A stretch of DNA of 64,000 nucleotides from Candidatus Sulfopaludibacter sp. SbA3. Lineage in GTDB: Bacteria; Acidobacteriota; Terriglobia; Bryobacterales; Bryobacteraceae. The DNA lies in the NCBI GenBank assembly GCA_945861625.1, contig CAMAVI010000004.1, forward strand, positions 1 to 64,000, given 5' to 3'. Below, piece by piece: positions 17,438 through 21,461 of this stretch (its first letter is position 1; every line of letters begins with the position of its first letter). Made by a program: the position numbers and the translations under genes. Below the pieces are notes generated by a model that worked only from the letters and a program-made list of their open reading frames with translations, searched no databases and was not told where the DNA came from.

Positions 17438-19174
17438 TTAAGCAATGGCTTTGGCGAACTCGGCGGCGGAGCGCGTGTTCAAAATATCTCGCGGCTCCAG
17501 CCATCCCCGCCGCGCCATGCGCACGCCGTAGCTCATGTTCGCCAAGTGTTTCGGATGATGCGCGTCGGTGGAGATTACGAACTTACAGCCCTTGGCTTTG
17601 GCGGCACGGATGAGAGCCGCTGAAAGGTCGAGCCGTTCCGGGCTCGCGTTAATCTCCAGATAAATATCGCGCCGCGCGGCTTCCGCGGCGACGGCCTCAA
17701 AATCGAACGGGAACGACTCGCGATGGAGCAAGATGCGCCCGGTGGGATGACCGATCGCTTTCAGATGGGGACACTCCATGGCACGCAACAAGCGGTCGGT
17801 CATCTCGGCCGATTCCAGGTTCATGTAACTGTGAACGCTGCCCACCACCCAGTCGAGTTCCGCCAGCGCGTCGTCGGTCAGGTCCATTTTCCCGTCACGC
17901 AGAATGTCGCACTCCAGTCCGGAAAAAACACGCACTCCCAAGCCGCGCTGATCCATCTCCCGAACCTGATGCGCGAAGGCGACGGCGCGCTTTTCATCGA
18001 GGCCGTTGGCCATCGCCAGGGCTTTCGAGTGGTCCGTAATCGCAACGTATTCCAGTCCCCGCTCCCGCGCGGCTTCCGCCATCTCAGCAAGCGATGCGCG
18101 GCCATCGCTGGAGGTGGTGTGCATGTGCAAATCGCCGCGGATGTGCTTTTCCTCAACGAGTTTCGGCAGCTTATGCTCTTCCGCCACTTCAATCTCGCCC
18201 AAGTTCTCGCGCAATTCCGGTGGAATCCAATCCAGGCCAAGTTTGGTGTAGATTTCTTCTTCCGTTGCGCTGGCCACGGGCTTGTCGTTAGTTGAACCAG
18301 CGTTATTCAGACGCGCCAGAGCGTATTCGTTCAGCGTGAAACCCATCTTCTGTGCGCGTGAGCGCAGCGCGATGTTGTGCTCCTTGCTGCCGGTAAAGTA
18401 CAGCAGCGCCGCGCCGTAGCTTTCCGGCCCCAAGGCGCGCAGGTCCACTTGCAAACCCTCCAGTCCGAACTTCACGCTGGCCTTGTTGGGTCCTCTGCCT
18501 AGCACTTCGTGAACGCGCGGATGAGTCACGAACTTCTCGATTGCTGCTTCGGCGCCATTTCCGGTGGCAAGCAGATCCAGATCACCGATGGTTTCTTTGC
18601 CGCGGCGCAGACTTCCCGCCGCCGTGACATTCTCCACCCCAGGAACCGCGCTGAGATATTCGATCAATTCGTCGGCGGCTCTCTGTCCGAACGAAAGTAA
18701 AAAACGCCCCTGCGTCTGCCGGTAGGAAGCGATGGAACGCAGAACTTTCTCTTCGAGCTTCGCGCCCATGCGCGGCAGTTCCTGCAGTTTGTGCTCCTTG
18801 CAGATGCGTTCCAGATCGTCGATCGATTCCACCTTGTAGGTGTCGTAGAGCAGCCGGACACTCTTGGGGCCGAGCCCTTGAATGTTCAGCAACTCCAGGA
18901 GCCCCGCCGGATATTTGCCCAGCATTTCATCGCGTCTCTCGAAACTGCCGCGCTCCTCGATTTCCTCGATGATCGCGGCGATTCCCTTCCCGATACCGGC
19001 AATGTCCGTCAGCTTCTTCTCCGGGTCTTTCAAGATGGCGGCCATCTGTTCGGGGTGGCCTTCGATCACTCCGGCCGCTGTCCGATAACTTCGAATACGA
19101 AAGGAGTCTTCGGCGGAAATCTCCATTAGGTCGGCCGTTTCTGAAAGGAGCTTGGCGATCGCGCGGTTTTCCAT
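17438..19174 (-). CDS. polX: DNA polymerase/3'-5' exonuclease PolX
   Basis: This 578-residue family X polymerase is used in base excision and gap repair. The N-terminal 8-kDa and helix-hairpin-helix region covers 1-150 (IAGIGKGIA, IQGLGPKS). The polymerase palm has catalytic D198 and D200 (GDLDLL) and D244. The C-terminal PHP domain has metal ligands H350 and H352 (DLHMHTTSSDG) and D381/H382 (ITDHSKA), which gives the exonuclease activity of bacterial PolX. Full length and intact motifs indicate function. The ATG start at 19174 is 60 bp from the divergent UvrC-like gene, so two DNA-repair genes share a promoter region. Confidence 0.95.
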   Translation of the reverse strand: MENRAIAKLLSETADLMEISAEDSFRIRSYRTAAGVIEGHPEQMAAILKDPEKKLTDIAGIGKGIAAIIEEIEERGSFERRDEMLGKYPAGLLELLNIQGLGPKSVRLLYDTYKVESIDDLERICKEHKLQELPRMGAKLEEKVLRSIASYRQTQGRFLLSFGQRAADELIEYLSAVPGVENVTAAGSLRRGKETIGDLDLLATGNGAEAAIEKFVTHPRVHEVLGRGPNKASVKFGLEGLQVDLRALGPESYGAALLYFTGSKEHNIALRSRAQKMGFTLNEYALARLNNAGSTNDKPVASATEEEIYTKLGLDWIPPELRENLGEIEVAEEHKLPKLVEEKHIRGDLHMHTTSSDGRASLAEMAEAARERGLEYVAITDHSKALAMANGLDEKRAVAFAHQVREMDQRGLGVRVFSGLECDILRDGKMDLTDDALAELDWVVGSVHSYMNLESAEMTDRLLRAMECPHLKAIGHPTGRILLHRESFPFDFEAVAAEAARRDIYLEINASPERLDLSAALIRAAKAKGCKFVISTDAHHPKHLANMSYGVRMARRGWLEPRDILNTRSAAEFAKAIA

Positions 19175-19222
19175 CTACGCCTGATTGTAGCTTTCGCCGC
19201 GAGTCCGGCGGCAAGCAGTGGA

Positions 19223-19228
19223 TAAGAT
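19223..19228 (+). promoter_or_regulatory. -10-like element of the Cho/UvrC-like gene
   Basis: TAAGAT ends 6 nt before the ATG at 19235, and there is no ribosome-binding site between them. This predicts a leaderless or nearly leaderless transcript. No clear -35 element. Confidence 0.4.
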
Positions 19229-19234
19229 TGAAGA

Positions 19235-20311
19235 ATGCGGGAACCGCTCCTGGCGAACCCTTCCGATCTCGATTCCATGCCGGACCGGCCCGCTGTGTTC
19301 CTGCTGTGGGCAGGGGAAGGAAAACCTTACCTTGCCCGTACGGCTCTTCTGCGCCGCCGCCTGCGCCGTTTGCTCTCGGAAACAGATCGCGCCTCGCGTA
19401 TCCTCAATCTACGCGGCGTTGTCGAGCGCATCGAGTACTGGCTGACGGGATCGCAGATAGAATCCGCGCTTCTGCACCTCCAGCTTGCGCAAAAGCATTT
19501 TCCCGAAGATTGGCAGCGCATCGTGCGGCTGCGCCCGCCCGCGTTCGTCCGCCTCACGCTGGACAATGTGTTTCCGCGCACCATGATCACCACTCGACTT
19601 GGCCGTGGTCTGTTCTTCGGACCGTTCGCCACGCGCGCGGCGGCTGAACACTTCAACAACGAGGTCCTGGACCTGTTCCAGGTCCGCCGCTGCGAAGAGA
19701 ATTTGCAGCCGTCGCCGAATCACGCCGGTTGCATCTATGGTGAGATGAACCGTTGCCTGCGGCCCTGCCAGACCGCCGTCACGATTGACGAATACCGCCA
19801 CGAAGCCGATCGTCTGGAACAATTCCTGCGCACACGCGGCGCTTCCCTGTTGGAGCCCGCCGAACAGGCGCGTGACCGCGCCAGCACGGAGATGCAATTC
19901 GAAGAAGCCGAGCATTTGCACCAACGCTGTGCCCGCATCGCGGAAGTGGCAGGTGCAGCCGGACCGCTCGCGCGGGGCCTGGATCAACTGGCGGGCATCG
20001 CCGTCCTGCCTTCCGCGCATCCGGAGGCCATCCAGTTATGGTTTCTCATCGGAGGATGCTGGCAACCGCCGCAGCTCCTCTGGCTTTCGGAGATCGACGG
20101 CGCCGGAAAATCGATGGATCGCCGCCTGCGCGATATTGTCGCGAGCCTCGAACCGCGGGGATCGCCGAATCCCGAGCACCTCGCTCTGCTCACGCGTTGG
20201 CACGCCTCCACCTGGCGCGACGGGGAATGGCTGGAAATGGAGTGGCCCGCGAAGGTTCCCTATCGCAAGCTGGTGAACGCCATCGCGCGCGTCGCCTATC
20301 ATAAAATTTAG
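19235..20311 (+). CDS. Cho/UvrC-like protein lacking the C-terminal nuclease half
   Basis: The 358-residue protein follows the N-terminal half of UvrC. Residues 18-90 correspond to the GIY-YIG nuclease, but the two signatures are degenerate (AVF and YLA) while an Arg cluster at 36-43 and E76 occupy the expected catalytic Arg and Glu places. GLFFGPF at 125-131 matches the UvrC GxYFGPY motif. Four cysteines C153, C166, C174 and C178 match the spacing of the Fe-S cysteines of UvrC. Residues about 214-236 are a UVR (UvrB-binding) motif. The RNase H-like nuclease and HhH of UvrC (about 610 residues) are missing, as in E. coli Cho. Activity on damaged DNA is inference; the neighbour polX supports a repair role. 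Confidence 0.82.
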   Translation: MREPLLANPSDLDSMPDRPAVFLLWAGEGKPYLARTALLRRRLRRLLSETDRASRILNLRGVVERIEYWLTGSQIESALLHLQLAQKHFPEDWQRIVRLRPPAFVRLTLDNVFPRTMITTRLGRGLFFGPFATRAAAEHFNNEVLDLFQVRRCEENLQPSPNHAGCIYGEMNRCLRPCQTAVTIDEYRHEADRLEQFLRTRGASLLEPAEQARDRASTEMQFEEAEHLHQRCARIAEVAGAAGPLARGLDQLAGIAVLPSAHPEAIQLWFLIGGCWQPPQLLWLSEIDGAGKSMDRRLRDIVASLEPRGSPNPEHLALLTRWHASTWRDGEWLEMEWPAKVPYRKLVNAIARVAYHKI

Positions 20312-20345: not shown

Positions 20346-21461
20346 ATGAACTGGTGGACCAATCTGCGGGCCCTATGGCCGGGGGCGTTGCGTCAACACG
20401 TCACGCGCACGGGCGTGGCGTATAGTGTCACGGTGGTCGCCGTGGCGGCAACCGCGGTTCTCTCCGGCAACAACCTGCTTTTTTTGATCCTGGCGGCCAT
20501 GCTCTCAATCCTGTTTGTGTCGGGCTTCGTCAGCAAACTGGTTCTGGCGGGACTCGAAGTCGACCTGCTGTTACCGCCGCATATATCGGCCCGCCGCGCG
20601 GTCCGCGCCAATGTCCGCCTCAAGAACCTAAAGCGTTGGATGCCCTCCTTCAGCATCCTTCTGGCGGGAGCCCCGGATAGCGGCTTTCAAGGCGCTCTCT
20701 ACTATCCCGTGGCCGCGGGCGGAGCGACGGTGGAAGAGGCCATAGAGCTTTCGTTTCCGAGGCGAGGCCGCCACGCGGGCCGCGCGTTTTCACTCACCAC
20801 GCGCTTCCCGTTTGGTTTCGCCGAACGCCGGGAAGTGGTGACCATGCACCACGACATTGTGGTTTACCCGTGCCTGGATTCGCGGCCTGCTTTCGCGGCA
20901 TTGTTGAACAGCGTCACCGGCGATCTGGAAGCATGGCGCCGGGGCCAGGGTCACGACTTCTACCGTATCCGGCCATATGAAGCGATGGAGAGCGCCCGGC
21001 ACGTCGACTGGAAAGCGACGGCACACACCAACTCTTTGCAAGTTCGCGAATTTGCCCAAAGCGACGATCGCCTGGTGTTGCTGTATCTGGATATCGATGT
21101 GCCCCGCGGGCAGGACGCATGGTTTGAAACGGCGGTGGAGTGCGCCGCGTTCCTCGCCTATCATCTGACCGAAGGGGGTCACAGAGTTCGCCTCCGCACG
21201 CAAGAGATCGACGTGACAACACCCAGCCAGGGCGACGTGTATACGATCTTGCGTTATCTTGCGTTGGTGAGCCCCCGCCGCGGAGCACGTCCCGGCGAGC
21301 CGGATACGGACAATCAGCTCCAAATCGTTTTCAGCGCGGACCCGGAACGGATGGCGTCGCTGGGCTGGGGCGCCTCCGGCGGTTCGGTCAGCCAGAATAC
21401 GTCGCGGATCATCGGACCCGATGCGTTCGTCCCATCGAGCCCCCTTGAACGGGTAAACTAA
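20346..21461 (+). CDS. DUF58 domain membrane protein
   Basis: This 371-residue protein has two membrane helices near residues 25-60. A beta-rich segment follows, and then the DUF58 signature region (RRGQGHDFYRIRPYEAMESARHVDWKATAHT, about residues 197-227), in which the conserved REY/RPY-x-DWKATA core is seen as IRPYE...VDWKATA. A von Willebrand A-like fold is usual for this part. DUF58 proteins normally accompany MoxR ATPases and TgpA transglutaminases. Here the only candidate partner is the transglutaminase at 13318-15420. Function in envelope assembly or complex maturation is inferred from that association. Confidence 0.85.
   Translation: MNWWTNLRALWPGALRQHVTRTGVAYSVTVVAVAATAVLSGNNLLFLILAAMLSILFVSGFVSKLVLAGLEVDLLLPPHISARRAVRANVRLKNLKRWMPSFSILLAGAPDSGFQGALYYPVAAGGATVEEAIELSFPRRGRHAGRAFSLTTRFPFGFAERREVVTMHHDIVVYPCLDSRPAFAALLNSVTGDLEAWRRGQGHDFYRIRPYEAMESARHVDWKATAHTNSLQVREFAQSDDRLVLLYLDIDVPRGQDAWFETAVECAAFLAYHLTEGGHRVRLRTQEIDVTTPSQGDVYTILRYLALVSPRRGARPGEPDTDNQLQIVFSADPERMASLGWGASGGSVSQNTSRIIGPDAFVPSSPLERVN

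Follow-up and report, generated by a model that had tools for sequence, protein, structure and literature searches.

The DNA analysed here (the window, 64,000 nucleotides) contains a gene encoding a protein equivalent to the N-terminal half of UvrC (half-UvrC), and its GIY-YIG domain, read at the level of sequence, has a dead active site. We consider half-UvrC to be a non-incising UvrC paralogue that is ancient and vertically kept, and that would bind UvrB and DNA and modulate or scaffold repair; we give this reading a probability of about 0.6. Judging from its residues, the protein almost certainly performs no GIY-YIG incision. From the conserved parts of the protein we infer UvrB binding and a role in repair. 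Half-UvrC is predicted to bind an Fe-S cluster, which is likely, and to contact UvrB, which is reasonably probable. The features of the gene and its surroundings are listed below.

19235..20311, + strand: half-UvrC gene, 358 aa, co-linear with UvrC residues 3-360
19268..19522, + strand: GIY-YIG pseudo-nuclease domain, residues 12-96, with fold matches to UvrC GIY-YIG structures
19292..19300, + strand: AVF, residues 20-22, replacing GVY; F22 aligns with Y19 of Thermotoga (Tm) UvrC
19328..19336, + strand: YLA, residues 32-34, replacing YVG; Y32 aligns with Tm Y29
19355..19360, + strand: R41-R42; R42 is the superfamily Arg (Tm R39), R41 a gain of the family
19475..19477, + strand: H81, in the column of the metal-binding Glu (Tm E76) by three kinds of alignment
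19691..19768, + strand: Fe-S type block from alignments, Cys 153, 166, 174 and 178 (C-x12-C-x7-C-x3-C)
19841..19954, + strand: UVR helical hairpin from alignments and model, residues 203-240, loop F222-E223-E-A225
19955..20308, + strand: C-terminal domain, residues 241-358, counterpart by co-linear profile alignment of UvrC 253-360, the uncharacterised stretch that links UVR to RNase H
17438..19174, - strand: divergent neighbour, read as polX from its sequence, in 9 of 80 loci
20346..21461, + strand: co-directional downstream neighbour, DUF58-like by sequence reading, starting 34 bp past the stop

Domain layout and predicted structure

The first-pass annotation had described a reading frame with AVF and YLA in place of the GIY and YIG tripeptides, four UvrC-type cysteines and a UVR motif, and all of these were found in the sequence (residues 20-22 and 32-34; C153, C166, C174 and C178; loop FEEA at residues 222-225). 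Half-UvrC thus has the four Fe-S cysteines of UvrC. The C-terminal nuclease was also correctly described as missing, since no Pfam RNase H or HhH match was obtained and homology to UvrC extends no further than its residue 360. The divergent ORF at 17438-19174 is separated from the gene by a 60-bp spacer (19175-19234), as stated there.

Among the NCBIfam models, the exo-Cho and UvrC models cover residues 11-269 (E 1e-28 and 3e-25), and all NCBIfam matches are under their curated cut-offs. The best score is 99.7 bits with the exo-Cho model PRK07883 (residues 12-261; cut-off 495), and the UvrC model TIGR00194 gives 89.1 bits against a cut-off of 285.45. A Pfam search of the protein returned nothing significant, with neither an RNase H nor an HhH domain, and the N-terminal DEDD exonuclease part is absent. 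With the Pfam UVR model, the window protein is below threshold and only 12 of 36 members reach E 0.01. A profile-profile comparison with hhalign, between a profile of 36 half-UvrC relatives and a profile of 12 UvrCs, aligned half-UvrC 7-356 co-linearly with UvrC 3-360 (E 2.7e-33, probability 99.9). The RNase H domain of UvrC presumably starts just after residue 360. Because profile co-linearity ends at this residue, half-UvrC represents the N-terminal half of UvrC up to the start of RNase H, and it carries no further sequence beyond this half.

The AlphaFold2 model of half-UvrC, built from a 36-row alignment, has a pLDDT of 89.9 (72-80 near the cysteines) and a pTM of 0.86. The model finds UvrC GIY-YIG crystal structures. 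These were top-ranked by Foldseek (probability 1.00, TM by target approximately 0.7, E 0.01-0.1), and VIA-align gave Z 9.6 against 1yd6 (rmsd 2.7 over 81 residues) and Z 9.1 against 1ycz; the N domain of a plant glutaredoxin scored equally (Z 9.9). The matches in both programs therefore indicate that the predicted model keeps the GIY-YIG superfamily fold intact despite the lost motif. VIA-align also superposed residues 100-252 (19535-19990) on the At-HIGLE and Slx1 GIY-YIG domains at a Z of approximately 4, a weak hint that the region of the cysteine domain may hold another GIY-YIG-like fold.

The C-terminal domain (residues 241-358) folded alone has a pLDDT of 88.3, and taken alone it matches its UvrC segment weakly (hhalign probability 7.8). 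No clear known fold was recognized for this domain, with a ribosomal protein chain as the best VIA-align match (Z 4.5) and no Foldseek match below 0.15. Several Foldseek matches of low rank resemble RNase H or actin. A likeness of this domain to RNase H was considered and rejected as too weak, with UvrC RNase H itself appearing only at rank 40 (E 0.98).

Active site across the family

A scan of species genomes retrieved at least 80 related loci. Nine of the 80 were left out at first (seven with a late match start or a cut contig, two with frameshifts), and the window protein, the remaining 71 loci and 32 deeper members of the class form an alignment of 104 rows. Adding three members of the deepest branch and the nine initially dropped loci gives 116 rows, which represent 115 distinct genes, L065 and L123 being the same gene. 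L149, a duplicate of L120, was removed, and L178 was counted as L119. Two loci with 65% identity, L012 and L054, are filed as a Bordetella parapertussis MAG and a Bacillota MAG, and L012 shares the DUF58-like and TonB-like neighbours; this suggests that both are mislabelled Acidobacteriota bins.

Thermotoga numbering was set by PDB entries whose titles name Y19F, Y29F and N88A mutants. When the family was aligned with 1ycz by HMM, F22, Y32 and R42 took the positions of Tm Y19, Y29 and R39. The Tm E76 column is occupied by H81, so that the window protein reads F, Y, R and H at its active-site residues. Tm N88 adjoins a one-residue gap; W93 and Q94 are the closest columns to it, and a conserved Asn is absent there. 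In the first-pass annotation, E76 of half-UvrC had been taken as the catalytic Glu. That assignment does not stand: HMM, MAFFT and hhalign alignments agree that this residue corresponds to Tm E71. Of the catalytic Arg and Glu expected to align, only the Arg (R42) does so, the Glu being replaced by H81.

The metal-binding Glu occurs in none of the 104 aligned rows, nor does an Asp in the members read. R42 and each of the four Cys are kept in 104/104 rows. Both active-site Tyr are never present together (0/104), and one of the two is kept in most rows. The GIY Tyr is changed to F in most branches; elsewhere the YIG Tyr is changed to H or V/L. A sub-branch of six loci (L067, L068, L070, L072, L075 and L078), several of them labelled Acidobacteriaceae, keeps the GIY Tyr and has His for the YIG Tyr. 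The deepest-branch members L179-L181 lack the Glu and have lost the YIG Tyr, with the GIY Tyr kept in two of the three, and the Glu is missing in all nine loci first left out where the column is present. Overall, the Glu is found in 0/116 rows (115 distinct genes) where the column is readable. The controls, comprising 20 UvrCs, E. coli Cho and one actinobacterial exo-Cho-like protein, carry the Glu in 22/22 cases, and six additional UvrCs of the class read Y, Y, R, E. From this pattern, loss of the Glu probably dates to the origin of the family or earlier, and the Tyr would have been lost later, differing by branch.

According to a passage of PMC8287910, Tyr, Arg and Glu are invariant in the GIY-YIG superfamily, the Glu binds the metal, and each is required for cutting by SLX1; of this set half-UvrC has the Arg only. 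Replacing the second Tyr inactivates the Tm UvrC GIY-YIG domain, according to PMC9426483. The absence of the Glu throughout the family, together with the lack of a Tyr pair, therefore points to a pseudo-nuclease rather than a 3'-incising Cho. The earlier proposal of a 3' incision alone likewise disagrees with a family in which the metal-binding Glu is found in 0/116 rows and no member has both active-site Tyr. Binding of UvrB without cutting, proposed along with it, would fit the sequence of half-UvrC.

A working Cho could still make the 3' incision through a rearranged active site in which another acidic residue binds the metal. The Arg kept in all rows and the single Tyr of most would be in line with this, and a section of PMC2630997 describes R.Hpy188I with K in place of Y and one branch with a moved Arg. 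Within the GIY-YIG domain, however, E76 alone among the acidic residues is kept in more than 90% of members, and it is no replacement because all 20 UvrCs carry its equivalent in addition to the catalytic Glu. Position 83 is variable (E/D in 40 of 72) and is Gln in the window protein. The lost Tyr, moreover, differs by branch, as if freed from catalysis. We regard a working Cho as quite improbable.

Other positions are strongly kept or newly acquired. The F, E and A of the UVR loop F-E-x-A are invariant in both the 72-row and the 32-row sets. R41 (102/104) and R45 (101/104) have been gained in the family, UvrC having N, D, S or K at R41. SLX1 Arg38 and Arg39 contact the DNA backbone from a helix that corresponds to the R41/R45 helix (PMC8287910, in the portion seen), and R41/R42 would by analogy correspond to these two residues.

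Distribution, phylogeny and selection

Among 61 close genomes, the half gene is present in 53, most of which also have a separate UvrC match, and the other eight (G005, G027, G043, G048-G050, G054 and G055) have full UvrC only. In a search of 395 genomes of the phylum, the 54 genomes of its own class among the matches listed all reach E 4e-49 or better, and the listed genomes of other classes reach only E 1e-36 or weaker, with frames mostly of UvrC length; another 50 genomes gave no match. Of 199 sampled class genomes, almost all with a completeness of 95% or more, 178 gave matches at E 1e-38, in 73 of 84 genera. Of the 21 class genomes without a match, at least three owe this to contig ends; 20 were re-examined, and G466, G542 and G564 hold fragments at contig ends and the rest UvrC only. 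Half-UvrC is therefore dispensable in some lineages. As seen inside Acidobacteriota, it is restricted to the class Terriglobia. The plasmid collection yielded only distant matches below 60% identity, and the three inspected among the 20 listed are all full UvrC or exo-Cho-like.

In a tree based on 229 columns, 32 half-UvrCs lie on one side of a branch with support 100/99, and 20 UvrCs, E. coli Cho and the exo-Cho-like protein lie outside. The Terriglobia UvrCs form a clade of their own (support 100/95). Cho, the exo-Cho-like protein and L119 are long branches, so that the tree places the nearest outside relative of half-UvrC only tentatively. Homology to UvrC is clear, and half-UvrC is a clade separate from UvrC, Cho and the exo-Cho-like protein.

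The genome of the window also encodes UvrB, two UvrA and one full UvrC; both uvrA genes (G000:C74:5361-8030 and G000:C10:4990-7713) score over the family cut-off. In the deep-branch member L180 (G454:C22), the half gene and a full uvrC are located approximately 5 kb apart on one contig. Nine of the 80 related loci have the polX-like divergent neighbour, only two of them at a spacing of about 60 bp, and the DUF58-like downstream gene is found in 15 of 80. The commonest other neighbour is YvcK-like by sequence reading (17/80 loci, mostly non-adjacent). Divergence from polX is local to the genus and, occurring in only 9/80 loci, has little functional meaning. Linkage to polX or to the DUF58-like gene was rejected as a functional clue, all of these loci being near relatives. 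The neighbourhood is not conserved beyond subclades, deeper relatives being located elsewhere, and no NER gene is present in the conserved surroundings of the related loci. LexA-type boxes, sought as a sign of the SOS induction of E. coli-type Cho, were found upstream in 2 of 80 regions (0.2 expected), using general consensus patterns that may not fit the phylum. PADLOC returned no defence-system match. A promoter and terminator scan predicted one promoter-like and one terminator-like site, both within the half-UvrC gene.

Whole-gene dN/dS ranges from 0.04 to 0.15 in 12 chosen pairs, and that of the GIY-YIG part from 0.03 to 0.20 over the same pairs, one of which is saturated. These values point to purifying selection on half-UvrC, the GIY-YIG fold included. 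Among pairs of comparable divergence (3972 from the family and 125 of UvrC, each 38-55% identical over residues 12-240), C4 block identity is 66.5% in the half-UvrC family versus 43.9% in UvrC, and GIY-YIG domain identity is 40.4% versus 48.1%. The Fe-S block is the most conserved part of the family. On these sequence comparisons, constraint has left the nuclease site and moved onto the Fe-S block and a basic helix.

These data bear on whether half-UvrC is a decaying uvrC duplicate on its way to loss. Such a duplicate would show an eroded core motif and absence from some genera, as seen here, and frameshifts occur in 2 of 80 loci (L077 and L079), in which the broken half-UvrC frame reflects either decay or assembly error. 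The low dN/dS and the presence in 178/199 class genomes contradict this reading, as do 104 intact frames with invariant residues, and we find it barely plausible.

Proposed role and comparison with known systems

The favoured site of action of half-UvrC would be at UvrB-DNA complexes, where it would act without incising. The UVR hairpin may dock on UvrB, or on the UvrB that stays behind at a lesion, with the Fe-S block and the Arg-rich helix holding DNA. Half-UvrC would then serve as a brake on UvrC, or as a scaffold or hand-over factor for UvrC, not as a second incision enzyme. The cluster of UvrC is said to aid formation of the complex between UvrC and dsDNA (passage of PMC9426483, citing others). 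The same source reports that H. pylori UvrC still serves in recombination and transformation when its nuclease sites and HhH motif are lost.

The H. pylori case would also agree with an Fe-S protein that binds DNA but works in a process other than excision repair, perhaps in recombination or at stalled forks, with the UVR hairpin serving another partner. The strong extra constraint on the C4 block could be explained in this way. Invariance of the F-E-x-A loop in 104 rows is, however, expected if UvrB is still the partner, and no tie to any other pathway was seen. We consider a function outside excision repair unlikely, and give even odds to the specific statement that half-UvrC acts on NER and not on another DNA process.

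Tentatively, the favoured non-incising paralogue could be specified further: in Terriglobia, an Fe-S, UvrB-docking, non-cutting UvrC twin may occupy or test the UvrB-lesion complex ahead of UvrC. If true, recognition and licensing by the Fe-S/UVR module would be split from incision in nature, and the protein would be a regulator or proof-reading subunit that we did not find described for bacterial NER in the literature searched. In UvrC itself, what the Fe-S cluster and UVR do can hardly be told apart from cutting. Half-UvrC offers a natural separation, as a conserved UvrC half without the nuclease and with its Fe-S block under stronger constraint. If UvrB is bound, bacterial excision repair can include a non-catalytic partner from a nuclease family. 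SLX4 and ERCC1, as partners of their nucleases, are a loose parallel. Caution is needed in annotating half-UvrC genes as excinuclease or Cho.

Compared with known systems, half-UvrC is closest in layout to the N-terminal 360 residues of UvrC (TIGR00194), with the same order of GIY-YIG, C4, UVR and middle domain and the same spacing of Fe-S Cys. Unlike UvrC, it is without the Glu, the Tyr pair, RNase H and HhH and forms a separate clade, and its C4 block is more conserved and its GIY-YIG domain less so. E. coli Cho is, like half-UvrC, a homologue of the UvrC N-terminal half without RNase H, but it has the Glu, the Tyr pair and the Asn, whereas its aligned sequence shows no first Cys and a UVR loop is missing. 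The Cho-specific C-terminal domain is absent from half-UvrC, which has the UVR hairpin and the UvrC middle domain instead. The absent catalytic Glu argues against 3' incision of the E. coli Cho type by half-UvrC. The name Cho-like, given by the first-pass annotation, therefore suits the architecture (GIY-YIG, C4, UvrB-binding, no RNase H) but not a working Cho, in view of the separate clade and the lost Glu. The Cho-like+Exo proteins of Actinobacteria (PRK07883, NF005906) have a DEDD exonuclease that half-UvrC lacks, and the Nonomuraea member L163 has an intact Y, Y, R, E, unlike half-UvrC.

The Cho-like architecture (GIY-YIG, C4, UvrB-binding, no EndoV/HhH) is recorded once, in Gloeobacter violaceus, in the part of PMC1564403 seen, where truncated Cho-like forms are held to derive from a UvrC duplicate. 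Half-UvrC fits the Cho-like class of that passage (no EndoV/HhH, no Exo), with the UVR hairpin taken from the model. Compared by architecture alone, the Gloeobacter violaceus protein has the same domains as half-UvrC, which differs in being class-wide and, from its sequence, dead at the active site. Text searches of the literature returned no paper on an inactive or Acidobacterial half-UvrC form. The architecture is known, and its nuclease-dead, class-wide variant is new.
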